A DNA stretch of 33,363 nt from a virus: IMG/VR virus record IMGVR_UViG_3300031687_000060, positions 1-33,363 of that record, one strand, 5' to 3'. Position numbers and translations under genes: made by a program. Below the pieces are notes generated by a model. That model made no database searches. It saw only the letters and a program-made list of their open reading frames with translations, and was not told where the DNA came from. This document shows positions 2,982 through 23,940 of this stretch, in pieces (the first letter of the stretch is position 1; each line of letters opens with the position of its first letter).

Positions 2982-3857
2982 TTATTTTCCTATTGCGTTA
3001 CCGTAAATGTGTACGTGAACTCTGCTTGTATAATTGTAACCTCTTTGGATAGCCTCATCGGCAATGGTTGCCTCTGTTTGTACTAACCCTTCAAATGTAC
3101 CACCAACGCCCATAATCCATACAGGAAAGTTACATCCTGCTTCGCGGAATAGTTTGGTGTTTTCTTCCACTTCTTTCCAACTTGCTTCAGTACCATTAAC
3201 AACAAATTTCAACTGACCATTGTTTGATGCTTCTGCGTACTGCCCTATTACTTCTGGCTTGATTGCTTTCTTACTCATCTCTCCAGCAGTTGCCCAAAGT
3301 TTAGGACTAAGACTCCAATACCATTCACCTGGATACTCTTTAATGTATTCTACCATTTCCTGTTCAATTGGCCTAGTGCCGTTAGTTTCAACAGTAACAT
3401 AGTTAGGCATGTTATTACGTTTCTTAAACTCTTCCATTATATTAATCATACCAGGCTGTGTCTTCTTAAGCATCGGCTCGCCGCCTGTAAACACCATGTG
3501 CACGTTTTGTTGTGTTAGTGGATGTACGAACTTACCCTTAGGTAGAAGTGCTGTTAGCTCGTCTACAGCCTCCTCTACTGTACGATCAGTAATAAGATGC
3601 TTGTAACGTTTACTCCAAGTGTAACTACTGTCACACCCTTTATCAAACACAGGCAAGTCCATAACATCTGTTATGTCTGTTAGGTCTAACGTTTCGTATG
3701 GTAATACATAAGTGCTAGTATCAGTAGGATCCTTCTGTCCAAAGCCGTTACATTGAAGATTACATAGGAAAAATCTCATCCACAAACTAGGTATACCAAC
3801 GTATTGGCCTTCCCCTTGTGCTGAATAAAATGTTTCGCTATACTTTAAAGGGTTCAT
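2982..3857 (-). CDS. queE: 7-carboxy-7-deazaguanine synthase QueE-like radical SAM protein
   Basis: QueE uses S-adenosylmethionine and a [4Fe-4S] cluster to contract 6-carboxytetrahydropterin to 7-carboxy-7-deazaguanine (CDG), the first 7-deazapurine of the queuosine/archaeosine route. Family marks are the N-terminal SETFYSAQGEG (residues 7-17), a cysteine motif in FLCNLQCNGFGQ (C32, C36) and the SAM-binding FTGGEPML (residues 123-130). The usual third Cys of CxxxCxxC is Phe at residue 39; C75 in FDKGCDSSY could be the third ligand. The length (291 aa) exceeds that of typical bacterial QueE (about 210-240 aa), with an insertion after the cluster motif. The start codon overlaps the FolE stop, so both are co-translated. 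Family call is firm; cluster geometry is inferred. Confidence 0.88.
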   Translation of the reverse strand: MNPLKYSETFYSAQGEGQYVGIPSLWMRFFLCNLQCNGFGQKDPTDTSTYVLPYETLDLTDITDVMDLPVFDKGCDSSYTWSKRYKHLITDRTVEEAVDELTALLPKGKFVHPLTQQNVHMVFTGGEPMLKKTQPGMINIMEEFKKRNNMPNYVTVETNGTRPIEQEMVEYIKEYPGEWYWSLSPKLWATAGEMSKKAIKPEVIGQYAEASNNGQLKFVVNGTEASWKEVEENTKLFREAGCNFPVWIMGVGGTFEGLVQTEATIADEAIQRGYNYTSRVHVHIYGNAIGK

Positions 3858-4549
3858 TACTTGTCACATGCAAATTGTTGTTGAAGTTTAATATTATCCA
3901 TAAATTCTTTCTTTGTACCTGGATCATCTTTGAACGCACCTTTTAGAACAGTTGTCTGTGTTAGACTGCTATGTGCCTTAACACCTCTATTCTCTACGCA
4001 CCCATGTGTGGCTTGTATATAAACACCTAAGTGTTCGGCACCAGTTGCCTTCTGAATCTCTCTAACAATGTCGTTAGCAAGTTCTTCTTGTAGTGTTCCA
4101 CGCATAGCACACCATTGTGCTATTCTTGTGTACTTGCTTAGTCCAATTAGTTTGTCACTAGCAATAATACCAATGTATGCTACACCTCTAACTATCTGAT
4201 GGTGATGCGAACACATACTTGTAAGTTCGCTACGCACAACTAACATGCCTTCATAACGATCGTCGCTATCATTTGGAAATGCTGTTGCGATAGGCATTGC
4301 TTCATACCTACCTGCCATTAGTTCGTTAATATACATTTTAGCAAGGCGTTTGCCTGTGCCCATGCTGTTAGGATCATTCTCAGTATCAATTACAAGTCCT
4401 TGTAATACATCTTCAAACTTAACTGCGAGTTCGTCAATCAGTTGTTGCTTTTCGCCTTCTTGTATGTGGTCAGATATATTATCGCCTGCCCAAAATCTTT
4501 TACCTGCGCCAATTAAACGTTTTTTAATTGTGTCACTAACTCCCATCAT
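3857..4549 (-). CDS. folE: GTP cyclohydrolase I (FolE)
   Basis: FolE hydrolyses GTP to 7,8-dihydroneopterin triphosphate, the first step towards both folate and 7-deazaguanines. Zn ligands are visible: C113 and H116 in the motif CSHHHQIVRG and C184 in THGCVENRGV. The GLSKYTRIAQW segment (residues 136-146) and QEELANDIV follow the family consensus. Length (230 aa) matches the bacterial enzyme. Two ATGs are possible (4549 or 4546), with a GGAG site 4 or 7 bases upstream. The gene overlaps the DUF465-like gene at its start and queE at its end. In this context it probably feeds QueD-like and QueE proteins to make a deazaguanine base rather than folate. Confidence 0.95.
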   Translation of the reverse strand: MMGVSDTIKKRLIGAGKRFWAGDNISDHIQEGEKQQLIDELAVKFEDVLQGLVIDTENDPNSMGTGKRLAKMYINELMAGRYEAMPIATAFPNDSDDRYEGMLVVRSELTSMCSHHHQIVRGVAYIGIIASDKLIGLSKYTRIAQWCAMRGTLQEELANDIVREIQKATGAEHLGVYIQATHGCVENRGVKAHSSLTQTTVLKGAFKDDPGTKKEFMDNIKLQQQFACDK

Positions 4550-4905: not shown

Positions 4906-5394
4906 TTATCTCCACCACTCTTCATATGGAAAGACAATCCATCTTTCCTGATCAGGTAAAACATTATTTGCTGTATAACTAACTTTATCAAATTCGCTTG
5001 ACTCTTTGTCAAATAATGTACAATACTTAAGGTCGTCATGACGGATAAACATATTGTTGTTATCCTTACTATCAAAGTCATTGATAATGCTGTCAATACC
5101 TATTAGTGTTGTACCTGTGTCGTTGATATCATCAACAACTAAAACCTTCTTGCCTATGTATTTAGATAAAATGTGTCTAAGAGTGCCGGAATCTTCGATA
5201 TGCCCGTCTCTTGTTTGCCACCTAAATGCTTCGAATGGAACTTCAAAGTAATGGCTCAACATAACACCAAATGGATATGCGCCTCTACCGGGGCCTATCA
5301 CTACATCTGGATGATATGAATCATGGGCCATCTCTCTAACGATGTGTCTGCAGTCTCTATTAAGGACGTCCCAAGTGTAATATAATTTGCTCAT
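4906..5394 (-). CDS. Phosphoribosyltransferase (PRTase type I fold)
   Basis: The product (162 aa) carries the PRPP-binding signature VLVVDDINDTGTTL (residues 84-97, with D88, D89, T93, G94, T95), preceded by the GPGRGAYPFGVMLS loop (residues 34-47) typical of type I purine phosphoribosyltransferases. Such enzymes attach a purine or similar base to PRPP to make a nucleotide. Substrate cannot be read from sequence; the small size and loop resemble xanthine/hypoxanthine PRTases. It is the first gene after a near-consensus promoter and heads the operon that holds folE and queE, so a deazapurine substrate is conceivable but unproven; base salvage from host DNA is the plainer option. Confidence 0.85.
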   Translation of the reverse strand: MSKLYYTWDVLNRDCRHIVREMAHDSYHPDVVIGPGRGAYPFGVMLSHYFEVPFEAFRWQTRDGHIEDSGTLRHILSKYIGKKVLVVDDINDTGTTLIGIDSIINDFDSKDNNNMFIRHDDLKYCTLFDKESSEFDKVSYTANNVLPDQERWIVFPYEEWWR

Positions 5395-5429: not shown

Positions 5430-5968
5430 TCGGAATCTAATAAAACTATCTCATTATTGTCAAAATGTTCTAAATCCAATAGAGCCATGTTGTCGTTGAC
5501 ATTGCGTTTTGTCATTTCTAAAAACATTTCGATCTCATTCGCAAATGCTTTATCTAGTATAGGGTTCAGTGATTCTGCTTCCCCAATTTTACCTGTAATA
5601 AGCTCACAGGCATTCTTAAGTGATATTGTAAGACCTTCTACAAGCATTGCGTCAAACCCTTTCAATCGTTTATTAACAAATATAGAACGGTTCAGCATAC
5701 GCATATAACACTCTGCTGATATCTCTTGTATTTTGATTTCAACTCTACACTCTGCGAAAGTTAAATTCTTAAATGTTAAAATGTGATATGGGTCAAATTC
5801 AGTGTACTTACAAAAGAACTGAATACAGTCAATGATGTCCTCTTCATTAACAGGATAGATGTTTTGAATTTCTTCTAAGTCATACCCTGCTCCAATAGAC
5901 TTGCATACTCCCATCATAGGAACAGCATGTCTTTCTGTTACATAAATCCCACGTCTTTTACTGATCAT
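5426..5968 (-). CDS. Hypothetical protein (180 aa)
   Basis: A soluble, mostly helical protein with several Cys residues (for example VCKSIG, FCKYTE, AECRVE, SAECYM) that are not spaced as a recognisable metal site. There is no membrane segment. The start overlaps the galE stop (ATGA), so the two are co-translated. Its stop codon lies inside the -35 box of the next promoter. The family is not recognised. The N-terminal part (GAGYDLEEIQNIYPVNEEDI) is mildly reminiscent of a helix-turn-helix-containing DUF433-type protein, but this is too weak to assert. Confidence 0.75.
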   Translation of the reverse strand: MISKRRGIYVTERHAVPMMGVCKSIGAGYDLEEIQNIYPVNEEDIIDCIQFFCKYTEFDPYHILTFKNLTFAECRVEIKIQEISAECYMRMLNRSIFVNKRLKGFDAMLVEGLTISLKNACELITGKIGEAESLNPILDKAFANEIEMFLEMTKRNVNDNMALLDLEHFDNNEIVLLDSD

Positions 5969-6954
5969 TTATTTTTAATTGCCTTTGATTTATTATCCAA
6001 CCAATTCTTTGAATGTTCAAACATTTCGTCTAAACTGAATTGTGGTTTCCAATTAAGTAATTCATTAGCCTTAGTAGTATCGGCACACAAATAAGATGGG
6101 TCGCCTGCTCTTCTCGGACCAACCACATATTCTAATTGCTTACCTGTAACTTTTTCGACCGAGGAGATTAGGTCATGGATACTAAATCCAACACCAGAGC
6201 CTAAGTTAAATATACCACTCTTGCCACCGTTATTAAGATACTCTACTGCTTTTAGTTTAGCATCAGCAATATCTTGTATATGACAATAGTCTCTAATACA
6301 TGTTCCGTCTTTAGTATCGTAGTCACTACCACAAATATTAAATATCTTACCATTCATAGCACAATCAATTAAGATTGGCATAACATGGCTAGCCGGTTCT
6401 TGTGTATATCCGTTAGTTGCTAAAGGATCAGCACCAGCGGCATTAAAATACCTAGTGCTAACATAGTTTAAACCATATGCTTTATTATAGTCTTCAAGCA
6501 TTAGTTCAGTCATGTACTTACTCATAGCATACGGACTCATTGGATTTGGTGTCAAATCCTCTTTAAATGGTTCTTGTGTATCTCTTTCACCGTATACACT
6601 ACTTGAACCACTAAAGATAAAGTTCTGTACGTCATGTTGTACACACATATCTAACAATGCCTGTGTTCCAGACACATTGTTTCTATAATACTTACCTGGG
6701 TTATCAATACTGTCAGGTACAACATGACTGGCCGCTAAATGTACAACCGTTTTAGGTTTAAACATTTCTAATATGCCTGCTGTTGATTGTTTAGCAAAAT
6801 CATGTGGGAATGATGTGAAGTCTTTCGACGCCCACTTCCTATTACCATTGTCAATAACTATGACTTCATAGTTTGCCTTGGCAAATGTTTTGCTTACCTG
6901 TGTTCCTATAAACCCGGAACCACCTGTGATAACAACTGTTTCTTTATCACTCAT
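5965..6954 (-). CDS. galE: UDP-glucose 4-epimerase (GalE), extended SDR family
   Basis: GalE interconverts UDP-glucose and UDP-galactose using tightly bound NAD. The Rossmann motif GGSGFIG is at residues 11-17, the catalytic pair Y142 and K146 lies in SPYAMSKYMTE, and the upstream SGSSSVYG (residues 115-122) supplies the active-site Ser/Thr. GIFNLGSGVGFS and AGDPSYLCADTTKA match the UDP-sugar-binding C-terminal part. Length (329 aa) is normal. Related NDP-sugar epimerases cannot be excluded. In this phage it may supply sugar nucleotides for the glycosyltransferases at 9566 or 18075, acting on the host envelope, virion or DNA. It overlaps the 55-aa gene upstream and the 180-aa gene downstream. 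Confidence 0.92.
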   Translation of the reverse strand: MSDKETVVITGGSGFIGTQVSKTFAKANYEVIVIDNGNRKWASKDFTSFPHDFAKQSTAGILEMFKPKTVVHLAASHVVPDSIDNPGKYYRNNVSGTQALLDMCVQHDVQNFIFSGSSSVYGERDTQEPFKEDLTPNPMSPYAMSKYMTELMLEDYNKAYGLNYVSTRYFNAAGADPLATNGYTQEPASHVMPILIDCAMNGKIFNICGSDYDTKDGTCIRDYCHIQDIADAKLKAVEYLNNGGKSGIFNLGSGVGFSIHDLISSVEKVTGKQLEYVVGPRRAGDPSYLCADTTKANELLNWKPQFSLDEMFEHSKNWLDNKSKAIKNK

Positions 6955-7307: not shown

Positions 7308-7775
7308 TTAATCATCGAGCCCTGGGACATACGTCTCCTGAGCATCGTCTTTGTGCGGATTACCACCTTCATACCAACTGCCCTCTTTGGCCTGCGTTAC
7401 TGGTATTGGTTCATGGTATTCCATTTCACAGCCGTTTTCATTATCCTCGGCTACGGATATCTTTATATAGCGATCAGGATACTTTGCTTGTATCGTTAAT
7501 GCTAAATCGTCAGCGATCATCTCGCATGACTTAAAGTCTAGTTGGAGTTCTGCATTTCCATACAGTTTCTCCAACCATCTTTTAAATTGTATGAACTCTA
7601 TATCTCTATCATCATGGAACACTTCAATCCACACTTTAAAGTGGAATGTGTGTCTATGCGGATAGCCTAGGAAACTGACGTCGTACTCGTCGCCAGTCGC
7701 CAAGTTAGGATCAGTTAATGCCGCAGGATACTTATGTATACCTTCTTTACTAAATGTTACCCAAATACTTCTCAT
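7308..7775 (-). CDS. queD: QueD-like 6-carboxytetrahydropterin synthase / PTPS family protein
   Basis: QueD converts dihydroneopterin triphosphate to 6-carboxytetrahydropterin, the step between FolE and QueE. Evidence is a Zn triad pattern: H14 in SKEGIHKYPAA, then H40 and H42 in GYPHRHTFHF, matching the family H...HxH arrangement, followed by a beta-strand and the DRDIEFIQFKRWLE segment equivalent to the GMVxDFxxLK region. A later CEMIADDLA and ISVAEDNENG fit the T-x-E and Glu-containing substrate segments. The catalytic Cys normally found between the first His and HxH is absent. Length (155 aa) is a little long. Without neighbours folE and queE the call would be tentative; the context raises it. 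Confidence 0.65.
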   Translation of the reverse strand: MRSIWVTFSKEGIHKYPAALTDPNLATGDEYDVSFLGYPHRHTFHFKVWIEVFHDDRDIEFIQFKRWLEKLYGNAELQLDFKSCEMIADDLALTIQAKYPDRYIKISVAEDNENGCEMEYHEPIPVTQAKEGSWYEGGNPHKDDAQETYVPGLDD

Positions 7776-7783
7776 ACTATTCC

Positions 7784-7981
7784 TTAAACAATATTACTTG
7801 CTTGTGGGCCTTTCGGTCCTTCTTCAAGATCATACGTCACTTTTTGATTTTCTTCTAGTGATGTATATCCGTCTCCTTTGATTGCCGAAAAATGTGCGAA
7901 CACATCTTTGCCACCTTCTTCCGGTGTAATAAATCCAAAACCTTTAGATGTATTAAACCATTTTACTGTACCATTTGCCAT
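7784..7981 (-). CDS. csp: Cold-shock protein CspA family
   Basis: A 65-aa single OB-fold protein. It has the RNP1-like motif KGFGFITP (residues 13-20) and the RNP2-like motif VFAHFSAI (residues 27-34), preceded by [10 protein letters not shown], all diagnostic of cold-shock domain proteins that bind single-stranded nucleic acid and melt RNA structure. The ending PQASNIV is also typical. It lies 8 bases upstream of the QueD-like gene and downstream of the small membrane gene group. Phage copies may act as RNA chaperones during infection; that role is inferred. Confidence 0.95.
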
Positions 7982-8604: not shown

Positions 8605-8696
8605 TCTGTATGCTCTCTTATATATTCTTTAACTACATGCATCCCATATGATGCCCATGTAATTACTATTAAACTCCATATTAACAATTCGATCAC
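8601..8696 (-). CDS. Single-helix membrane micro-protein (31 aa, GTG start)
   Basis: The gap between the DUF481-like gene and the 137-aa membrane gene contains one short frame: GTG 8696, overlapping the upstream TGA as GTGA, to TGA 8601, overlapping the next ATG. The product begins MIELLIWSLIVITWASYGMH and consists of one membrane helix followed by a charged cytoplasmic-type tail. Precise four-base overlap at the start and overlap at the end make chance unlikely. Function unknown. Confidence 0.6.
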   Translation of the reverse strand: MIELLIWSLIVITWASYGMHVVKEYIREHTE

Positions 8697-9361
8697 AGCT
8701 CTAATTCAAAGCCGAATGTTAGTATGTTTTCTTTCTTATAACTATCTGTATGCTGATTTGATACATTTATACTAAATTTATCACTAACCTGATATGCTAA
8801 TTCTGTTTCTATACGGATGTATGCTTCTTTGCTAGTTTCGTATAGTGCCTTATTTGTAATACTAATACGTTCAGACATCATGTATGCTACCCACAAACTA
8901 TTTCTTAAAATAAGTTCCGTGGTGTCACCTTCTAAATATGCTAGTGATACTTCGTTACTGACTTTCCACTTGTCGCTTTTGTATAGTTTACGACCGTACC
9001 CTGCGCCTAGCACACTTCTTATATCGTAGTCTCGTATCTCATCGTAGTCTACTTGAAGTACTGTTAGGAAGTAACTTTCATCTGTTAGGTCTTTGTTTAG
9101 TTTAAATTGAGTGTAAAGGTCATGGAATTCCACGTCACCGTTTTCACTGGCATAGTAGTAATCGCTTTCGAATACATACTGCCAACCATTTTCTAGTTCT
9201 GTTCGATGATCAAAGTCTAAATTGACTGTAACTTCGTCCTTGCCACTAGCGAATATTTCACCGCTACCACCTATAGTTGTTTGTGCCGCTACTTGAACAG
9301 TACACAACAAAAGGAATACTATTACAAATATTGATATTACTGATTTCTTAACTGTACTCAT
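8693..9361 (-). CDS. DUF481-like outer-membrane beta-barrel protein
   Basis: The product (222 aa) begins with a clear signal peptide (basic MSTVKKS, hydrophobic residues 8-22, cleavage after VAA near residue 26). The mature part is a series of amphipathic strands with alternating residues (ENGWQYVFESDYYYAS, SYFLTVLQVDYDE, GAGYGRKLY, EVSLAYLEGD) and ends in a strand with a terminal hydrophobic residue (LTFGFELEL), as in outer-membrane barrels. GAGYGRKL plus the strand pattern resembles DUF481 (YdiY-type) proteins. It would be inserted in the host outer membrane, where it could alter receptor access or permeability. It overlaps small membrane genes on both sides. Confidence 0.7.
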   Translation of the reverse strand: MSTVKKSVISIFVIVFLLLCTVQVAAQTTIGGSGEIFASGKDEVTVNLDFDHRTELENGWQYVFESDYYYASENGDVEFHDLYTQFKLNKDLTDESYFLTVLQVDYDEIRDYDIRSVLGAGYGRKLYKSDKWKVSNEVSLAYLEGDTTELILRNSLWVAYMMSERISITNKALYETSKEAYIRIETELAYQVSDKFSINVSNQHTDSYKKENILTFGFELEL

Positions 9362-9573
9362 TTAAAACCTAGTTCCTTTAATGCTTGTTGTCTTGTCTTG
9401 CCCATTTTTTCTAATGCTTCGTTTATTTCAAAGTCGTAGTAAGCACCTGTAAGTTTTCTAAGTGCCGATCTTTCGCTTAACATTACACTACTGATCCAAC
9501 AGCCGTATAACATAAACCCTAGTAGTACTATAGTAAATACTGTATTAAAAATTAATGCCATAATCTCATTCAT
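9358..9573 (-). CDS. Single-pass membrane protein (71 aa)
   Basis: One strong hydrophobic helix at about residues 5-30 (LIFNTVFTIVLLGFMLYGCW) is followed by a charged, helical cytoplasmic-type tail ending in KTRQQALKELGFK. The start overlaps the glycosyltransferase end by 8 bases, and the stop overlaps the DUF481-like start (ATGA). No family is recognised. Position suggests work together with the outer-membrane barrel protein and the two smaller membrane proteins downstream. Confidence 0.7.
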   Translation of the reverse strand: MNEIMALIFNTVFTIVLLGFMLYGCWISSVMLSERSALRKLTGAYYDFEINEALEKMGKTRQQALKELGFK

Positions 9574-10795
9574 ATTTTTGCTTCGCTACTTTTCGTCTGT
9601 AGTATTGTCTATCTCTTTGATACTCTAATCCTAATCCTGCCATAACCTTTAATGTTCTTTCAATAGTACCATTCTGATAATCGCTGATCTTACCTAAGTT
9701 ATATCCATCTAAATTGTGTGCCGATATGTCATCGAACATGTTTTCTAATTTACTTATAGCGTCTTCTAAACTCCAAGGAACGTATAAGTGTCTACCGTTG
9801 TTAGCAAATACTTCTGGAAAACTTCTATATGCTGGATATAGTGTAAGTGTACCAAGTGTGTCTGCTTCGCTAACAGTATTGCTTACCCAATCTTGTAAAG
9901 CACAATTAAACAACACTTTGCTATCTGCCAAGTAGTTGTAGTAATCATTCTTCTTTAAGCCTGTGTATATTTTAAAGTTAGCCGTATTGCCTTCTTGTAA
10001 TGCCATAGCACGATCTACATACTCTTGGTCTGAACTCTTTAGTTCAGGATGTCCACAAAATATAGCAAACTCTGTGTTTGGATCTATTTTATAGTATGCT
10101 TCTGCTAAGTCCATATAGAAATGCGGTTGTTTCTCGTCGTCCCAACGTGCCGCAAATCCAACTCTATTTGATCGTTCATGTAACGGCTTTAGTTCTGGAA
10201 CTCTACTTTGTACTTCTTCTTTACCAAACGGTAAACCTGTTACATATATTGGCTTTTTAAAGCCTGCTGTTCTTAAATGTGCTACAAACTCCTCTGAGGC
10301 TACACAGATGCCATCAACAAATTCATCTACCATTTGTTCATATCTACGCATCCAGTCAAACATACCTTCCCTAATTAAGAAGTCATCTGGGTCTGTTGTT
10401 TGTGCTAAGAATCTAAGGAATACTTTAGGTCTGTACTCCGGTGGGGACTGATCCATGATATACGGTAAACATTCTAAACCAGGTGTATACATATCTTCAT
10501 AAAAGATAACATCATCACTAGTTATTTCACCGTTCTTCATTTTTTGTACTAAGTTCATTGTTTGACTTAGACTGTAATAACTTCTACCATGTGCGTCTAA
10601 CACACTACCTGTAACGATTGCTTTACTATTATCAAGTTCTTCACCTTCGATAATTTCGTAGTCTAACCCGTACTCTTTAAAAACACGTTCGTTCCATTCC
10701 TGTAACTGAAGTGTGTACCTTGCTTCATAAGACTCTAGTCCCATGTAAAACAATTTACGAATACTATTATTAATTAAACCGTTATCTTCTATCAT
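9566..10795 (-). CDS. GT-B fold glycosyltransferase
   Basis: The 409-aa product has two halves. The C-terminal half carries GT4-like features: a strand and donor-loop segment RVGFAARWDDEKQPHFYMDL (residues about 217-236), IFCGHPE, and an acidic motif region in SNTVSEADTLGTLTLYPAYR equivalent to the E-x7-E donor-ribose site. The N-terminal half includes GSVLDAHGRSYYSLSQ and FYEDMYTPGLE. It should transfer a sugar from a nucleotide donor. Acceptor is unknown: host surface glycan, virion, or a modified DNA base. It is the first gene after a near-consensus promoter (10820-10848) and is followed by membrane and outer-membrane genes, which favours an envelope target; the DNA-modification genes directly upstream keep a DNA target open. 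Confidence 0.75.
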   Translation of the reverse strand: MIEDNGLINNSIRKLFYMGLESYEARYTLQLQEWNERVFKEYGLDYEIIEGEELDNSKAIVTGSVLDAHGRSYYSLSQTMNLVQKMKNGEITSDDVIFYEDMYTPGLECLPYIMDQSPPEYRPKVFLRFLAQTTDPDDFLIREGMFDWMRRYEQMVDEFVDGICVASEEFVAHLRTAGFKKPIYVTGLPFGKEEVQSRVPELKPLHERSNRVGFAARWDDEKQPHFYMDLAEAYYKIDPNTEFAIFCGHPELKSSDQEYVDRAMALQEGNTANFKIYTGLKKNDYYNYLADSKVLFNCALQDWVSNTVSEADTLGTLTLYPAYRSFPEVFANNGRHLYVPWSLEDAISKLENMFDDISAHNLDGYNLGKISDYQNGTIERTLKVMAGLGLEYQRDRQYYRRKVAKQKYE

Positions 10796-10819
10796 ATCTC
10801 TCTATCCTCATTATCTACT

Positions 10820-10848
10820 ATTATATCACTTTTTGTGGCTAATGTCAA
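10820..10848 (-). promoter_or_regulatory. Early-type sigma70 promoter for glycosyltransferase operon
   Basis: On the minus strand, -35 TTGACA (10843-10848) and -10 TATAAT (10820-10825) are perfect with a 17-base spacer. The spacer contains GCCAC-AAAAA-GTGA, a slightly weaker version of the CCAY-N5-RTGG inverted repeat seen at 5401 and 23269. The -35 box contains the TGA stop of the 38-aa gene. About 24 bases of leader precede the glycosyltransferase ATG at 10795. Confidence 0.88.
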
Positions 10849-10961
10849 CCTTTTTCTATTTCTGTAAATGCTTCATGTCCTTCAAAGAACATCTGTATCA
10901 TTACATATACTGCTACGTTAACAAACGTTAGTGCCGCAAACAAAATCCATGTAGTCAACAT
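10845..10961 (-). CDS. Single-helix membrane micro-protein (38 aa)
   Basis: This frame starts at ATG 10961, overlapping the upstream stop as TAATG, and ends with TGA 10845 inside the -35 box of the next promoter. The product begins MLTTWILFAALTFVNVAVYV, a single membrane helix, followed by MIQMFFEGHEAFTEIEKG. Composition and exact start overlap support a real gene. Function is unknown; several similar micro-proteins lie in the operon just downstream. Confidence 0.6.
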   Translation of the reverse strand: MLTTWILFAALTFVNVAVYVMIQMFFEGHEAFTEIEKG

Positions 10962-11467
10962 TAATCTATAACCTCGTCTTTTGTGTATTTGGTCCAATCT
11001 GTAAATGTCTCTCTTGTTTGTAAATCATGTAAACTATGACACCATACACCTGGGTTTGTTGCCTTAAAGTCTTTGTCATCTAGTTTAATAGTAGTATTGT
11101 AATTGAACTGATTCATGTATGGCAACTTAACACTTATCATTGGTATGAATGTTGCGTACTCTGTCATACCGCATTCCAGTACTTGTTCTGCTAATGTTAC
11201 ATCAAAGTCTAGTGTTAACCAGATACCTTCCTTGAGCATGTCATTAAGTAATGTATCCCAGGCCGCCCATGCTTCTGCGTCCTTAGGATGGAAACTTTGA
11301 TTGGCTCCTAAGTAAATATGCGGACAAGCATTGTTTAATGCTCTAGCAAGTATTTCTTCTTTGGGCTGATACCCAACTACAAATAACGTCCTTTGACCAT
11401 AAGCAGGAGTATGCTCTACTTCTGTGCCTATAAAAAACTTTGTATCCACGTGACCTTCTCTATCCAT
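10961..11467 (-). CDS. Conserved-type hypothetical protein beside DpdA/oxygenase genes (168 aa)
   Basis: The protein alternates strand-like and helix-like segments (TLFVVGYQ, CPHIYLGANQSF, WLTLDFDVT, YATFIPMISVKLPY, NYNTTIKLDD), which suggests a small alpha/beta or partial TIM-barrel fold. The motifs FFIGTEVEHTPAYG and TNPGVWCHSLHDL look like strongly constrained positions, and there is a possible metal or substrate set of His, Asp and Glu. I recall similar proteins in marine T4-like phages without an assigned function. It follows the 2OG-Fe(II) oxygenase gene by one base and shares its operon with dpdA, so a part in base modification is a reasonable hypothesis only. Confidence 0.75.
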   Translation of the reverse strand: MDREGHVDTKFFIGTEVEHTPAYGQRTLFVVGYQPKEEILARALNNACPHIYLGANQSFHPKDAEAWAAWDTLLNDMLKEGIWLTLDFDVTLAEQVLECGMTEYATFIPMISVKLPYMNQFNYNTTIKLDDKDFKATNPGVWCHSLHDLQTRETFTDWTKYTKDEVID

Positions 11468-11468
11468 C

Positions 11469-12152
11469 TTAATTACCTATTCCAAAATCTGTGTGTAATT
11501 GCTTTTTTAATTTTTCCATAACAAATGAATCTTTGTGTAATGCGTTTTTCAATTGGGAAGGGTCAAAGTATAAATCTTTTTCTTTTCCTTCCTGCTTCTG
11601 AAATCCAATGTACACTGATAATCTTACTTCGCTTTTATTAATTACTTGTTGTATTTGATGAAATAGGGTACCTGGGAATATAACACATCTATTAAACTTA
11701 TGCTCAATTAGTGTTGCTCTATCTTCTCCTAAATAAAAGCCACCGCCTTCATCTTTAAAATATGGATTACCAAACCAAAGAAATATTAAAATATCTTTTG
11801 TAAGATGATCAACATGCCCTTCAAAAGTATCGCACTCTTGTGTGAGATTAACATGACATCTTACGCAATCTGTGTATTTAAAATCTGTTCCATGTTCTTC
11901 ATTCCACTTTGTTACATAAGGAAGTATTGTAGTTGACATCTTAAATACATCTTCAATATCTTCTTTGGTCAATCCTTTTGTAAAGTAAAAAGAACTTTCC
12001 CCTTCTGCGTCTGGATAAGGATTCTCTACAGCACTTAATACAAAACCACTTTTCATATAATATCTAAGCCAGTCGCTACACATTTCTTTGCTGAAAAAGT
12101 CATCAACAATTAGTACTGGCTTATCTTCAACAACTAGTGATTGCGTATTCAT
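11469..12152 (-). CDS. 2-oxoglutarate/Fe(II)-dependent oxygenase (prolyl 4-hydroxylase-like)
   Basis: Double-stranded beta-helix oxygenases bind Fe with an HxD...H triad and 2-oxoglutarate with a distal Arg. Here these are H113 and D115 in FEGHVDH, H165 in GTLFHQIQQV, and R177 in EVRLSVYIGF. The intervening FLWFGNPYFKDEGGGFYLGE and the start VDDFFSKEMCSDWL are typical for P4H-like members. Length (227 aa) fits. Substrate could be protein, nucleotide base or small molecule. It overlaps the 64-aa gene at its start and lies two genes downstream of dpdA, which makes oxidation of a DNA base an attractive but untested role. Confidence 0.85.
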   Translation of the reverse strand: MNTQSLVVEDKPVLIVDDFFSKEMCSDWLRYYMKSGFVLSAVENPYPDAEGESSFYFTKGLTKEDIEDVFKMSTTILPYVTKWNEEHGTDFKYTDCVRCHVNLTQECDTFEGHVDHLTKDILIFLWFGNPYFKDEGGGFYLGEDRATLIEHKFNRCVIFPGTLFHQIQQVINKSEVRLSVYIGFQKQEGKEKDLYFDPSQLKNALHKDSFVMEKLKKQLHTDFGIGN

Positions 12153-12346
12153 TAGTAACTAATGTAACCCCATTCAACTAATTGTGCTTGAAAGAATGTT
12201 GCTTTCCTTACACTAAAATCCATCGGTGCTTGTATTTTACCATCCTTGGTTTCGATGATTGTTACACCTGTATCAGTTACTTCAAAGTTCACGTCATGTC
12301 CTTCGTGTGTATAAGTACCACTGTATACTGTTTTACTCTCCGTCAA
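12152..12346 (-). CDS. Small hypothetical protein, TTG start (64 aa)
   Basis: The frame starts at TTG 12346 with a GAGGG site 6 bases upstream; no in-frame ATG exists before residue 42. It overlaps the end of dpdA by 14 bases and its stop overlaps the oxygenase ATG (TAATG). The product is small and beta-rich (TYTHEGHDVNFEVTDTGVTI) with a hydrophobic helical end, and it looks like a compact soluble domain. It is sandwiched between dpdA and the oxygenase, so it could be an accessory subunit. No family is recognised. Confidence 0.65.
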   Translation of the reverse strand: MTESKTVYSGTYTHEGHDVNFEVTDTGVTIIETKDGKIQAPMDFSVRKATFFQAQLVEWGYISY

Positions 12347-13874
12347 AGTCTGCCCTCATTATGTCTTCTTGCATGTCCATTTCGCTGTCACCAGCGTCGT
12401 ATTCGTCAGTTTCAAACAAAGAACCAAACGTTGATTGTTCAGCACTACCATCTGAGAAACTAATTTCTTTTAAGAACTCTCTACCATCTTCTAGCATTTG
12501 TCTTGCGTTAGTGTTTGCTGGGTCTAATACTTCTTCGGCAAAACTATCAAACATGAGTATGGTACCGGGTACATAAGGTGATGTTTCATTGCTTACACTA
12601 CTGCCTTTAACCTTTTTCCAGTTCTTCCAATGTGTTGGTGTTCTATATTTTTCCATATCAGCCAGTCTATTTGCTTCTTGTGTTGCTGTAATATGATTAT
12701 AAACACTATGACCCATGTAAAGAGCATAACTAAGGGTGTCCCAACTAGTTGTACATTCTTTACCATTTCTATTTGTATCACCGTGTCCTAAAACACAGAT
12801 GTCGCCGACAGTAAGTCTTTCCATTATAGGGGAATGAGCAAAAGGCATAGGCATTGTAGAACCTTTCATGTCTTTGTTATCGAATGCTCTATCCATAAAG
12901 TATCCAAATCGCTTTGCTCTAAACTCATTATGTGTGTATGTCTGACCATATGCTGTATTAACAAAAGGTGATGCCGCATCATACGATACTGTAACATTAG
13001 GATTATCATGTTTTCTTAACTGTCTTTGAATACTGGTGAGGTGACATGCCCAATTTAGGCGTCCAGTACCCAAGAAGTGAATCCAATCCTTTCCTTCAAG
13101 TAGTCCATCGTCTCTAAGATCTAATATTCTACTTAACACACTATGCATGTGTTTCATATTGATACCAGCGAATGCGTAACCTTCTAAGGCTCTGTTCTCA
13201 TCACCGTATGCTTCTTGCACAAAACTTGGATTAGAAAAATGCTTTACAGCCTCATACCATTCTTTGCTATTTTCTTCATTGCTACCACTTAGTACATTTA
13301 GGAACTTAGTAGCACCTGGGTTTCTATTTCTTAGAAAGTAGTCTAAATTTAATAAACTAATATCTAATGTATCTCGGAATTCAGTTAGTCCGGTTCTTTC
13401 GCTCAGTTTGCCTACTGCCGCAAACGCCGGAACGTCAAGTGTCATACTCCAGTCTGCTGTATGCTCTAGCCATGTAAGTATCTTATTACAGAATGCTGTT
13501 CTAACAGGGTCATTAGGATCTTTAGCATTGCTCCAGTCCATTTTAATAACACCAGTAGCAAGTTGGAATCCACCCGAGTCACCAAGTATCATTGTTTGGC
13601 TACGGTCTCTGCCTTGTATCATTGGCTCACGTTCATCACTCTTTACAGGATCTAACTGTGCGTGACCACCTGAGTATAGTCCCCATGGATAAAAGTAATA
13701 ACTATCTTCCGGGTCTAGGAAGTTCATGCCAGCAGTACCTTTCTCAAAGCCTGCCGGGCATCTCCATTCTGTTGGATTAGTCGCCATCTTTTGTAATTGT
13801 GTTACATAGAAGCCACTAATAGCAGGTAAGTATACTGCCCAATCCTGATGCTTCTTTCCTAGATCTACTGTCAT
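12333..13874 (-). CDS. dpdA: DpdA-like DNA 7-deazaguanine transglycosylase (TGT superfamily)
   Basis: TGT enzymes swap guanine for a 7-deazaguanine in nucleic acid; the DpdA branch acts on DNA. The 513-aa product has the diagnostic ILGDSGGFQLATG (D99-Q104; TGT SDSGGFQ base-binding loop), then MTLDVPAF (D147; equivalent to TGT D156), FLNVLSGSN (near TGT Q203/G230 region), FLGTGRLN, and VSYDAASPF (D299; likely the nucleophile, TGT D280). Spacing between these resembles bacterial TGT but with insertions and a long acidic C-terminal tail, and it lacks the tRNA-enzyme C-x-C-x2-C zinc motif in recognisable form. It follows the sliding-clamp-like gene by 3 bases. FolE, QueD-like and QueE elsewhere in the window would supply its base. 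Family call is strong; DNA specificity is from phage context. Confidence 0.85.
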   Translation of the reverse strand: MTVDLGKKHQDWAVYLPAISGFYVTQLQKMATNPTEWRCPAGFEKGTAGMNFLDPEDSYYFYPWGLYSGGHAQLDPVKSDEREPMIQGRDRSQTMILGDSGGFQLATGVIKMDWSNAKDPNDPVRTAFCNKILTWLEHTADWSMTLDVPAFAAVGKLSERTGLTEFRDTLDISLLNLDYFLRNRNPGATKFLNVLSGSNEENSKEWYEAVKHFSNPSFVQEAYGDENRALEGYAFAGINMKHMHSVLSRILDLRDDGLLEGKDWIHFLGTGRLNWACHLTSIQRQLRKHDNPNVTVSYDAASPFVNTAYGQTYTHNEFRAKRFGYFMDRAFDNKDMKGSTMPMPFAHSPIMERLTVGDICVLGHGDTNRNGKECTTSWDTLSYALYMGHSVYNHITATQEANRLADMEKYRTPTHWKNWKKVKGSSVSNETSPYVPGTILMFDSFAEEVLDPANTNARQMLEDGREFLKEISFSDGSAEQSTFGSLFETDEYDAGDSEMDMQEDIMRADFDGE

Positions 13875-13877
13875 GTT

Positions 13878-14621
13878 CTAACTCTTTGCTGGTAAAATGT
13901 ATGTGTACTCGCCTAAGCCACTGTCAATAACAATCTGCATTGCTCCAGCATTAGCAAAACTTACAGTACAATTAGCACTATCACTAAGTCTTAAAATACT
14001 TAATGCTTTATCAATTTCCCACTTCCAGTTACCTGACAGTTCGCCTTCAACATTGTTGTTGATAGGTAGTTTACTTTTGTCTCCAGCACCTTCGCCAATG
14101 CTAAAGAATAAAGCACCGTCTTTGGTACTTGGGGAGAACACAGGTTCAAATCCACCTAACACACCATTGAAGTAACCTAAGTCCTTTAAGTTCTTCTGCG
14201 TAGGTTGAATACTGACATCCCATGGAATATCTTTCATCTTAACAGACTTCAGTTGCTGATTAATAACATCTGCTAACATAAATCTGTAACTACCTGTATG
14301 ACCTTCAGCACTAGAAAAACTAATTTCTACTGGAATGTCATTACCATTTCTTTCTTGAGTCTTTACTTCGACGTTACTACCTTCATCTCCAAACCCTGGA
14401 AACTTTAAGTAGCCGTCTAGTACACTCATTCTGCTTAGACCAACTGTTTGATCTACAAAGTCTGCTACAGGGTTGTGTAGTTTGCCTTTTAGAATAACAG
14501 TTTTATCTGCGTCCATCGCCTCAATCTCAGTACCTTCTGTAGTACCTGTAATTTTAACCATTTCAATGAAGCCTAAAGCATGGGTATGCCTTAACACGTC
14601 TTTAAAAATATCTTTTATCAT
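13878..14621 (-). CDS. 45: Sliding clamp (T4 gp45-like)
   Basis: The clamp encircles DNA as a trimer, tethers gp43 and, in T4, also activates late transcription. The 247-aa protein (T4 gp45 is 228 aa) is beta-rich and acidic with two similar halves: an N-terminal domain with FVDQTVGLSRMSVLDGYL in place of the clamp linker/domain-1 helix and a C-terminal half with WEIDKALSILRLSDSANCTVSFANAG, ending in GEYTYILPAKS, much like the final strand of PCNA-type clamps. The gene directly follows the polymerase gene, as replication genes cluster in T4-like phages. Primary sequence similarity to T4 gp45 is low, so the call depends on length, pattern and neighbour. The start has a GAGGTG ribosome-binding site. 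Confidence 0.7.
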   Translation of the reverse strand: MIKDIFKDVLRHTHALGFIEMVKITGTTEGTEIEAMDADKTVILKGKLHNPVADFVDQTVGLSRMSVLDGYLKFPGFGDEGSNVEVKTQERNGNDIPVEISFSSAEGHTGSYRFMLADVINQQLKSVKMKDIPWDVSIQPTQKNLKDLGYFNGVLGGFEPVFSPSTKDGALFFSIGEGAGDKSKLPINNNVEGELSGNWKWEIDKALSILRLSDSANCTVSFANAGAMQIVIDSGLGEYTYILPAKS

Positions 14622-14711: not shown

Positions 14712-17420
14712 TTAATCATCGAATTCAAACAAACTATGGAATGTACTAGTAGTGTCTGTCGCTGACAGATCCCACTTTAACACACCTAATAAGTTTTCTA
14801 CCTTCTTATCGATGACTGCTTTTTCCATTGCGTCCTCGTCAAAAGGCATTTCTTTGAACCAATCTGGTAATTGTAATTCGTCTGTAGGATAAGCAATGCT
14901 GGTATAACCCATATTGTTACTCTTAAGTCGACATACAATCACTTTCATACCATCAGTAATTGGCATACTGTAGGCATCACTATTTGCTAATAACATGTTA
15001 TTCCAATTAATACTTGCTCTAACATGTCCAGGTATCATTACCTTAGTGTTCTCATCTTTTAGTTTCTCTAACTTATACAGACTAGCACTCTTATTCATAG
15101 TAAATGCTTTGTTGTATGCTTCTGTATAATGTGTTAGGTTGTTTACCCTCTTTGGCATTCCTTTCATCCAAGGGTCCATTACTTTGAAACCGTTTTTAAA
15201 TTCTCTTACAGTTGCTAGTACATCATTTTCTGTACCGCCATCTAGTGTTAATGTTAATACGTCACTTAAGAAGTCTTGTACAAACTCAGGCGTATCAGAT
15301 CTTTTAATATCTAGACCCATAACTTTTAGTTTACCACCCGGTGGTTGGTACCCTTCAATGTCCAGTACATTAATCGCATAACGCTTCTTGGTAATAAACA
15401 AGCCTGCTCTACCAACTACTTCTCTACCTGCTTTTAATATATCACCTGATGACTTTGGAATGTTAAATGCCTGCTTGGCAAACTTTGGAAACGAATCACT
15501 AACTGTATCGGATATGTTATCATAAAGTGCGATAGCACTCTCCATATCTAATTCTAAATTTTGTTCTTTGCTGATTGTGTCAGCACTAAAGTATACAGAG
15601 TCAGTGTCACCATACACAATAGTATCGCCTGTATGGTCATAACTACCAGTCATCATCTTATTTGTTTCAGCACCCATGTGTCTAGTAATTGCTCTACCAG
15701 TAAGTGTAGTTGATTGTCCAATCCTATGATCAAAGAATCTACTACCTGGATTACAAATAGCACCGTATGTACTGTTAAGTAAAATCTTTCTAACCAACTG
15801 CCTCTTATCCCAAAAGGCTATATCAGCCGGGTCAGTTGCTTCTTTCTTTTTCTTTTGTAGTTGCTGTCTTTCGCTGTACCAACGCTCTAGCAGTCCTGGA
15901 ATAACACCTTGTACGTCTGTTCTAAAGATTGTACCATTAGCACTAATACACCAAGGCTCTTTGCTGTTAAACAACATGTTATACACGTCGCCACCTGTTA
16001 CATTAACTTCGGTTCCGTCTTCTAAATCTAATACAATCGGCCTATCAATGTCTTTGCTCATTACTAGTTCGTATTCATTACTGCCAAACTTGCCAGCCCA
16101 CGCATCAGCAAACGATTTCTTGTCTAGTTGTATGCTTGACTTAATTTCAGAGTTAGTATACTCTTGTCTAAGTTGCCCAACTACTGTTTCGGGTGCCATA
16201 TTCAATGCTCTAATAACACTAGGATACAAGGAGTTAATGTCCATTGATCCTATCCACTGATGTATGCCTTTCTTAGGGAATGCCACATAGGCACCTGCTA
16301 CTGTATGCCCCCATGGGTTATCGGAGTCCTTGCCTCGTTTCCTATCTGGTATAACCATGTTACGTCTATGTGCTTCGTTGATAATAGCCGAGTCAATTGT
16401 TTGTACCGCTCCCATTGTTACTGGAAGTAAAACTGTATTCTGATGTGCTATTTCACTAGCAAGACTAATAAACTGTAACTTGTCATCAATCTTCTTAAGC
16501 AACATTGTATCTTGTATGTTATATTCTAAGAACATTTCAAAGTCATGATTATAAAGTCTATCTAAACTACCTTCGTATGGAACTTTCTTTTCACCAACTT
16601 CCATTTCGCCAATGTAATCTAATCTGTAACTGTGACGTTCTTCATAGTTATATTTTCTATAAAGTTGTAAGTAGTCTAAGTGTACACGACCAACTAAGTC
16701 ATATGTCTGTGTGTCTTTGCCATACATGATGTATTCACGTTTAACTACGTTCTTATCTAGTAAGCATAGACGCCTTGTTTCGCTTTTGCCAAGTACCTTA
16801 ATGATTCTATTAACAGTATAAGGGATATCATAACCCTCACTGTTCCAGCCACTAAGCACATCAGCATCTTCAATAAGCGACAAGAACGCATCTAGCATAC
16901 CTGCTTCGTCTTTAAACAGTATAGTGTTGCCTACCTTCTTTGCTATCTCTTGTGCCTGTGTCCAGTTTAATGTCTTAGGCGGAACTGCTACACAAATAAC
17001 TTGATCCATCCAGTCTAAGTATACACTGATACTAGTAATAGGTGTAAACGCATCTTCAGGTGAACTGTAACCCTCTTCTGGATCAAAGTCTACCTCAATA
17101 TCAAAGAAGCACTTATGTAAGGCAGGAGCCTCTTCGCCTAAGTACTGTTCTGCCAACACTCTGTTAACAGGCTTAATGTCGCTTTCGTATGTTTGTCTAT
17201 TTTGATATAATGCGGTATTACGTTTAAAGTCTTTCCAGTTAGATGCTACGACCTTACTGACAGGATTACCATGGATGCTACGTTCTTTGCCTTTTGGATC
17301 ATCTATATAAAAATAGTATCGCATAGGATGATCAATGATCTTTCTTTCGCCACTCTTAGTGCGTTCTACCACACGAACAATGCCGTTTTTTTGATCAAAT
17401 ACTGCGTCAACGTAACTCAA
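14712..17420 (-). CDS. 43: DNA polymerase, family B (T4 gp43-like)
   Basis: The replicative polymerase with 3'-5' proofreading. The 902-aa length matches T4 gp43 (898 aa). Exonuclease motifs: FFDIEVDF (D107, E109) and VLSGWNSEGYDIPY (ExoII), with a later NIQDTMLL (ExoIII region). Polymerase motifs: SMDINSLYPS (motif A, near residues 391-400), KILLNSTYGAI (motif B, near 543-553), and YGDTDSVYF (motif C, near 600-608). The C-terminus has an FHSLFEFDD tail that fits a clamp-binding peptide. The start codon is TTG directly after the upstream TAA, with AGAGGA 8 bases away. The MSYVDAVFDQKN beginning agrees with marine T4-like polymerases. Confidence 0.97.
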   Translation of the reverse strand: MSYVDAVFDQKNGIVRVVERTKSGERKIIDHPMRYYFYIDDPKGKERSIHGNPVSKVVASNWKDFKRNTALYQNRQTYESDIKPVNRVLAEQYLGEEAPALHKCFFDIEVDFDPEEGYSSPEDAFTPITSISVYLDWMDQVICVAVPPKTLNWTQAQEIAKKVGNTILFKDEAGMLDAFLSLIEDADVLSGWNSEGYDIPYTVNRIIKVLGKSETRRLCLLDKNVVKREYIMYGKDTQTYDLVGRVHLDYLQLYRKYNYEERHSYRLDYIGEMEVGEKKVPYEGSLDRLYNHDFEMFLEYNIQDTMLLKKIDDKLQFISLASEIAHQNTVLLPVTMGAVQTIDSAIINEAHRRNMVIPDRKRGKDSDNPWGHTVAGAYVAFPKKGIHQWIGSMDINSLYPSVIRALNMAPETVVGQLRQEYTNSEIKSSIQLDKKSFADAWAGKFGSNEYELVMSKDIDRPIVLDLEDGTEVNVTGGDVYNMLFNSKEPWCISANGTIFRTDVQGVIPGLLERWYSERQQLQKKKKEATDPADIAFWDKRQLVRKILLNSTYGAICNPGSRFFDHRIGQSTTLTGRAITRHMGAETNKMMTGSYDHTGDTIVYGDTDSVYFSADTISKEQNLELDMESAIALYDNISDTVSDSFPKFAKQAFNIPKSSGDILKAGREVVGRAGLFITKKRYAINVLDIEGYQPPGGKLKVMGLDIKRSDTPEFVQDFLSDVLTLTLDGGTENDVLATVREFKNGFKVMDPWMKGMPKRVNNLTHYTEAYNKAFTMNKSASLYKLEKLKDENTKVMIPGHVRASINWNNMLLANSDAYSMPITDGMKVIVCRLKSNNMGYTSIAYPTDELQLPDWFKEMPFDEDAMEKAVIDKKVENLLGVLKWDLSATDTTSTFHSLFEFDD

Positions 17421-23911: not shown

Positions 23912-23940
23912 ATTATACAGGATTAGTTAGGATATGTCAA
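23912..23940 (-). promoter_or_regulatory. Sigma70-type promoter for HAD phosphatase gene
   Basis: On the minus strand, -35 TTGACA (23935-23940) and -10 TATAAT (23912-23917) are perfect with 17-base spacing. The spacer TATCCTAACTAATCCTG has no CCAY-RTGG repeat, so this promoter may escape the regulator suggested for the other set. The upstream sulfotransferase gene stop (23927) lies within the spacer. Confidence 0.88.

Follow-up and report, generated by a model that had tools for sequence, protein, structure and literature searches.

Phage DNA is known to carry sugars on modified pyrimidines; in the T4 type, hydroxymethylcytosine is glucosylated by a phage-encoded glycosyltransferase (GT) of the GT-B fold, which adds the sugar to the modified base from a uridine diphosphate (UDP) sugar made by host or phage. 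In vertebrate transfer RNA (tRNA), dedicated GT-B enzymes glycosylate a 7-deazaguanine nucleoside to give mannosyl- and galactosyl-queuosine (manQ and galQ). The 7-deazaguanine DpdA systems of Enterobacteria phage 9g, CAjan and Vibrio phage nt-1 add small groups only (Hutinet 2019, PMC6884629). The window analysed here, the whole of the 33,363-nucleotide (33 kb) virus record IMGVR_UViG_3300031687_000060, encodes a family B DNA polymerase and probably specifies a pathway for modifying DNA with 7-deazaguanine that does without QueC and finishes with glycosylation. Phage deazaguanines are reportedly tailored by DpdL, DpdM and DpdN in QueC-less or preQ1-type phages, as described by Cui in 2023, and we know of no glycosyltransferase among these enzymes. 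No report of glycosylated deazaguanine in DNA was found in the open-access literature, a search that did not extend to Cui 2023. The predicted novelty of the present system is the combination of deazaguanine with glycosylation, each of which is known separately.

As in the described phage DpdA systems, a transglycosylase resembling tRNA-guanine transglycosylase (TGT) lies next to polymerase and probable clamp genes and is accompanied by FolE, QueE and a protein of the QueD fold, and exchange of guanine in the phage DNA would be expected. Unlike those systems, the window lacks QueC and encodes, in addition, a GalE, a GT, a 168-amino-acid (aa) protein and the QueD-fold protein; comparison of its DpdA with that of 9g by hhalign showed no recognisable homology. 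As in T4, a GT-B enzyme encoded by the phage is predicted to place a sugar on a modified base of its DNA, whereas the base here would be a purine analogue introduced by base exchange rather than through a modified deoxynucleoside triphosphate, and the GT is GT4-like. A dedicated GT acting on a 7-deazaguanine nucleoside would be common to this system and manQ/galQ; there, however, the nucleic acid is tRNA and the acceptor is a cyclopentenediol made by queuosine-specific enzymes, which are unreported in viruses (PMC6884629).

An earlier note on this sequence had proposed deazaguanine hypermodification with an oxygenase as one step and had leaned against including the GT. The open reading frames that it described at 9566-13874 all exist on the minus strand, and hypermodification with a glycosylation step is retained here, with the roles of oxygenase and GT reversed. 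FolE, QueE, the QueD-fold protein and GalE, of which the note made no use, are encoded in the same window and complete the picture. The same virus is represented by a 66.7 kb IMG/VR contig (L021), in which every tested protein is 100% identical. The genes concerned are as follows.

12333..13874, minus strand: DpdA-like DNA-guanine transglycosylase, 513 aa, with DSGGFQ at 99-104, D147 and nucleophile-equivalent D299
9566..10795, minus strand: GT4-like (GT-B) glycosyltransferase, subtype A, 409 aa, assigned from PF00534, motifs and neighbourhood; predicted deazaguanine glycosylation
7308..7775, minus strand: QueD/PTPS-fold protein, 155 aa, assigned from its predicted structure; core of QueC-less clusters
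5965..6954, minus strand: GalE, UDP-glucose 4-epimerase (TIGR01179), predicted UDP-galactose supplier
4906..5394, minus strand: purine-type phosphoribosyltransferase (PF00156, E 1.2e-16), recurrent in clusters
3857..4549, minus strand: FolE, GTP cyclohydrolase I (PF01227, E 3.7e-37)
2982..3857, minus strand: QueE-like radical S-adenosylmethionine 7-carboxy-7-deazaguanine (CDG) synthase (PF04055)
10961..11467, minus strand: 168-aa protein of a DpdA-linked family, fold without a confident match, conserved linkage
11469..12152, minus strand: 2-oxoglutarate (2OG)-Fe(II) oxygenase of the PF13640 type, 227 aa, clade-limited accessory, probably outside the core pathway

The GT, which the earlier note had leaned to exclude, is the best-supported partner of DpdA. 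Its family is matched by PF00534 in 8 of 10 members (best E 8e-12; window member 3e-4, below the curated cut-off), and RxxxxK and [DE]x7E motifs, the latter mostly Dx7E in the window subtype, occur in nearly all 295 GTs, as expected of GT4 (GT-B) enzymes. The family profile matches no PDB chain at E<=0.01, T4 enzymes included. DpdA of either type is present in 106 of 107 long GT loci (at least 20 kb). Among IMG/VR loci of at least 20 kb, those retrieved with the GT hold DpdA in 36/36 cases, those retrieved with DpdA hold the GT in 23/24, and those retrieved with the 168-aa protein hold both in 17/17; a second scan gave 26/27. In the phage collection, GT homologues occur in six lineages (BUCT-ZZ01, ACP17, X1, PA5oct/Paride, Phosso and PhiXhv-12), all six with deazaguanine genes. 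In BUCT-ZZ01 a further GT4-like gene, possibly for the addition of a second sugar, lies between FolE and DpdA (L031:12010-13353).

Because polB and the clamp gene are also linked in the viral group, raw linkage counts overstate independence. Evidence beyond shared ancestry comes from three sources: two GT subtypes (~23% identical) pair with two DpdA types in all combinations; the GT subtype has switched 9-12 times along the DpdA tree, always staying in the cluster; and bacterial modules associate GT and DpdA with no polB shown. Bacterial and archaeal genomes amounting to 257 Gb were scanned and yielded 15 GT relatives, every one of which stands beside DpdA, the QueD-fold protein, FolE or QueE. 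Methylobacterium has a row of DpdA, a putative YhhQ-type transporter, the QueD-fold protein and the GT, the last three with overlapping ends; the transporter and GT genes overlap, with DpdA adjoining, in Azospirillum, Devosia and a Rhizobiales bacterium. The transporter assignment is based on PF02592 in Azospirillum, where the score clears the cut-off, and in Devosia, where it falls just short; for the remaining two it is based on sequence and gene position. These modules lie at L301:90-3428, L302:7902-11103, L306:8093-11056 and L308:7547-11044, some near integrase-like genes. The bacterial DpdA, YhhQ-type transporter and GT module is possibly a mobile DNA-modification cassette that uses an imported or host-made base.

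From the observed gene content, catalytic motifs, folds and conserved linkage we infer the DNA target, the order of the steps, the sugar and its attachment point. FolE, the QueD-fold protein and QueE would convert guanosine triphosphate (GTP) to CDG or a CDG product, for which the DpdA-like transglycosylase would exchange guanine in phage DNA. The GT4-like enzyme would then transfer a hexose, most likely galactose from UDP-galactose supplied through the phage GalE, onto the deazaguanine. The phosphoribosyltransferase (4906-5394) may recycle the guanine released by DpdA, salvaging it towards GTP for FolE; the 168-aa protein would assist a further step, and the oxygenase would be a clade-specific accessory. 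In an alternative order, glycosylation by the GT would come first, on the free deazaguanine base or nucleotide, and DpdA would insert the base already bearing its sugar; this order would agree with the acceptance of free bases by DpdA/TGT enzymes and with the overlap of GT and transporter genes in bacteria. We consider it unlikely, as the base pockets of TGT-family enzymes are small and known phages glycosylate hydroxymethylated pyrimidines post-replicatively.

A different challenge is that DpdA, QueD, QueE and FolE modify phage DNA, whereas the GT has nothing to do with this and serves the envelope or host takeover, its place downstream being due to chance. GT4 enzymes often act on envelope glycans, and downstream of the GT lies a DUF481 outer-membrane-type protein with a signal-like N-terminus (8693-9361); a cold-shock-like protein, so named by sequence, is also found downstream (7784-7981). 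The promoter that the earlier note had placed between the GT and an upstream micro-protein is real as a consensus match, a perfect sigma-70-type TTGACA-17-TATAAT at 10848-10820 on the minus strand, and its sequence is kept at the same place in near relatives. Three such perfect sites were observed in the window against 0.10 expected by chance, the further two, also on the minus strand, being at 5429-5401, ahead of the phosphoribosyltransferase-FolE-QueE genes, and at 23912-23940. Since FolE and QueE thus stand behind a perfect promoter of their own, the promoter was rejected as a reason to exclude the GT, and the pathway is probably spread over several transcription units. The doubt raised by the envelope genes is likewise contradicted, because the GT stays with DpdA, FolE or QueE in deazaguanine clusters of unrelated phages and bacteria that lack those genes, including as overlapping pairs, and the subtype swaps keep its location. 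The bacterial GT-transporter-DpdA modules argue strongly against the envelope-gene explanation, which we regard as distinctly improbable.

Assignment of the transglycosylase rests on its catalytic residues and on remote profile similarity. D99, S100, G102, Q104, D147 and D299 are invariant across 25 diverse DpdA relatives, which carry the TGT/DpdA catalytic aspartate pair, a general base within DSGG[FL]Q and a second aspartate as nucleophile, and in the profile alignment D299 falls on the aspartate of the E. coli TGT 'FDCVMPTR' sequence. No convincing match was found among Pfam, PHROG, NCBIfam and PDB sequence profiles; the link to Pfam TGT (PF01702) is indirect, through a relative in Pseudomonas phage Illi-2 that passes the cut-off (29.3 versus 26.3 bits) and matches the window DpdA family profile (E 4e-10); hhalign to E. 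coli TGT gave E 9e-4. Kinship with the 9g type, DpdA1, was not detected by hhalign to 9g DpdA (probability 0.1%, E 0.55), and tblastn, which may miss remote kinship, gave no nt-1 match at E<0.01. Relatives occur in PA5oct-like jumbo phages (~50% identity), Sinorhizobium phage Phosso and Vibrio phage 2.275.O, in the last of which the neighbouring genes bear the annotations FolE, queuosine biosynthesis protein, vitamin uptake transporter and 7-cyano-7-deazaguanine reductase. The second DpdA type, in phages X1, ACP17 and BUCT-ZZ01, carries DSGGLQ, SFDEIP and SYDSTTH.

Two genes assigned to replication lie upstream of dpdA in the window.

13878..14621, minus strand: probable sliding clamp (phrog_12062), directly preceding dpdA in this group of phages
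14712..17420, minus strand: family B DNA polymerase (PF00136, phrog_262)

The clamp is named from the position of its gene between polB and dpdA, as in phage 9g, and not from a profile. This setting bears on whether the transglycosylase instead inserts deazaguanine into tRNA, with the GT glycosylating it as for queuosine; the base pathway is indeed that of tRNA queuosine, GalE accompanies the GT, and galactosyl- and mannosyl-queuosine offer precedents. However, the CxCxxC zinc motif of tRNA TGT was found in 0 of 312 DpdA loci scanned, and dpdA adjoins polB and the clamp gene in most loci, as in phage 9g with its dG+ DNA. The absence of the zinc site and the DNA-replication and deazaguanine gene setting together predict a DpdA acting on DNA rather than a TGT acting on tRNA. 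QueA, QueG and QueH are moreover reported absent from viruses (PMC6884629), and a tRNA target appears to us quite improbable.

For synthesis of the base, QueE matches TIGR04508 with E 1.6e-9, below the cut-off, and shows QGEG, C32/C36 and CDSSYTW motifs; approximately 38 residues are inserted between the second and third cysteines of its radical S-adenosylmethionine motif, before CDSSYTW. The QueD-fold protein gave nothing useful in Pfam, PHROGs, NCBIfam and PDB sequence searches, no canonical PTPS sequence match was detected, and its assignment comes from the structural model, whose top Foldseek matches are E. coli QueD (4ntk; probability 1.00, TM(target) 0.69), with HxxP...HxH and E110 conserved. 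Of 69 non-redundant loci, 68 encode it, as do 26 phage records, with FolE and/or QueE alongside in the clusters read; in Cellulophaga phage phiST it stands beside FolE and QueD. That it is simply the missing QueD is doubtful, since PA5oct, ACP17, BUCT-ZZ01, X1 and Phosso carry it in addition to canonical QueD, and it may therefore act after QueE. We regard it as a candidate QueD substitute or CDG-processing enzyme, such as the CDG decarboxylase DpdL. The family is also seen in deazaguanine clusters with or without the GT in phiST, RHph_I1_18, Bakedbeans, D479 and Ahp1 (L288:8989-9336 and L289:8971-9348; further loci L290, L291 and L292).

Neither QueC nor Gat-QueC was found in PA5oct, Phosso, BUCT-ZZ01 or ACP17, and a search of the relatives' contigs for QueC returned weak partial matches in a 330-aa frame of some, the window contig and its relatives being fragments. 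The near-total lack of QueC points to CDG or its product as the base, which is probably not preQ0, ADG or G+. In PhiXhv-12, Gat-QueC, a PIG-L deacetylase and the GT are direct neighbours (L035:5621-8855), a possible amino-sugar variant on a preQ0-type base.

The sugar is suggested by the company that the GT keeps. GalE accompanies subtype A in 85 of 101 loci and subtype B in 3 of 35 (p 7e-16, uncorrected), and because the window GalE exceeds the TIGR01179 equivalog cut-off (326.7 versus 262.3 bits), the donor is likely to be UDP-galactose. Among the subtype B loci examined, some have different sugar genes in places: a cytidylyltransferase, a UDP-glucose/GDP-mannose dehydrogenase and a DegT aminotransferase. 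Genes of these three kinds, together with a HIT hydrolase and an S-adenosylmethionine methyltransferase, in clusters other than that of the window (L236:15270-16663, L261:8177-8761, L065:2357-2728 and L062:5074-5895) hint at diverse sugars or further tailoring.

Between DpdA and the GT, the earlier note had picked out the 168-aa protein and the oxygenase, with two small proteins beside them.

12152..12346, minus strand: 64-aa protein that overlaps dpdA, found in near relatives only
10845..10997, minus strand: 50-aa putative membrane micro-protein, seen in this virus only

The co-occurrence of the 168-aa family with DpdA holds up, with DpdA in 79 of the 80 loci found with it. The family is present in 64 of 69 non-redundant loci, has homologues in PA5oct and ACP17, and contains 11 invariant residues. 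Its AlphaFold2 model is of high confidence (predicted local distance difference test score 93.7) and gave no confident fold match, Foldseek against PDB and BFVD returning the ACP17 homologue only; Pfam, PHROGs, NCBIfam and PDB sequence searches returned nothing useful. No such protein was detected in X1, in BUCT-ZZ01 or in the bacterial modules, and it is thus not strictly required.

The oxygenase carries HVD...H...R, and at E<0.01 PF13640 is matched by 4 of 5 family members, the best with 2.3e-5. The gene is confined to the clade of the window, and an IMG/VR scan returned seven loci. About half of the closest relatives lack it; in these the 64-aa gene directly joins the 168-aa gene, and DpdA, the 168-aa protein, the QueD-fold protein and the GT are kept. 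No tblastn match was found in 50,697 phage records, and three subfamilies of 2OG oxygenases together reach 16 of 295 GT loci (~5%). On this distribution the oxygenase was rejected as a core step; it is a clade-limited accessory at most, and oxidation is unlikely to be central. A scheme along the lines of the earlier note, in which the oxygenase oxidises deazaguanine or a precursor and the resulting hydroxyl accepts the sugar, draws on the position of the gene within the dpdA-to-168-aa run of the window clade and on unrelated 2OG oxygenases in a few other clusters, and is made highly improbable by the same distribution.

Several observations weigh against a QueC-less pathway ending in glycosylation. 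CDG offers no obvious hydroxyl acceptor for a sugar. The viral-group cluster is embedded next to polB and the clamp gene, and shared ancestry accounts for part of its linkage. The near relatives of the window, which are fragments, yielded no canonical QueD, so that the CDG pathway depends for its completeness on the QueD-fold protein. The minimal bacterial modules are without the 168-aa protein and mostly without the QueD-fold protein, which indicates that the acceptor may differ between lineages. When the association of GalE with GT subtype is taken over independent pairs, its direction is consistent and never reversed, with too few pairs and a median p of 0.125.

With these points in the balance, we still favour, with some reserve, a glycosylated (here galactosylated) 7-deazaguanine as a widespread DNA base, made by a QueC-less CDG pathway with a distinct DpdA family and a GT4 enzyme that is swapped between two subtypes with matching sugar-nucleotide genes; the same core module of DpdA, YhhQ-type transporter and GT would also serve bacteria, where it is apparently carried by mobile DNA. 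This GT stands beside DpdA in hundreds of environmental phage contigs, as it does in the cultured phages PA5oct, Paride, ACP17, BUCT-ZZ01 and X1. If the prediction is true, a sugar on deazaguanine would join two strategies, glycosylation and deazaguanine substitution, and add a purine analogue to the sugar-bearing DNA bases. Strong protection from restriction would then be expected, giving phages a new way to shield their genomes.

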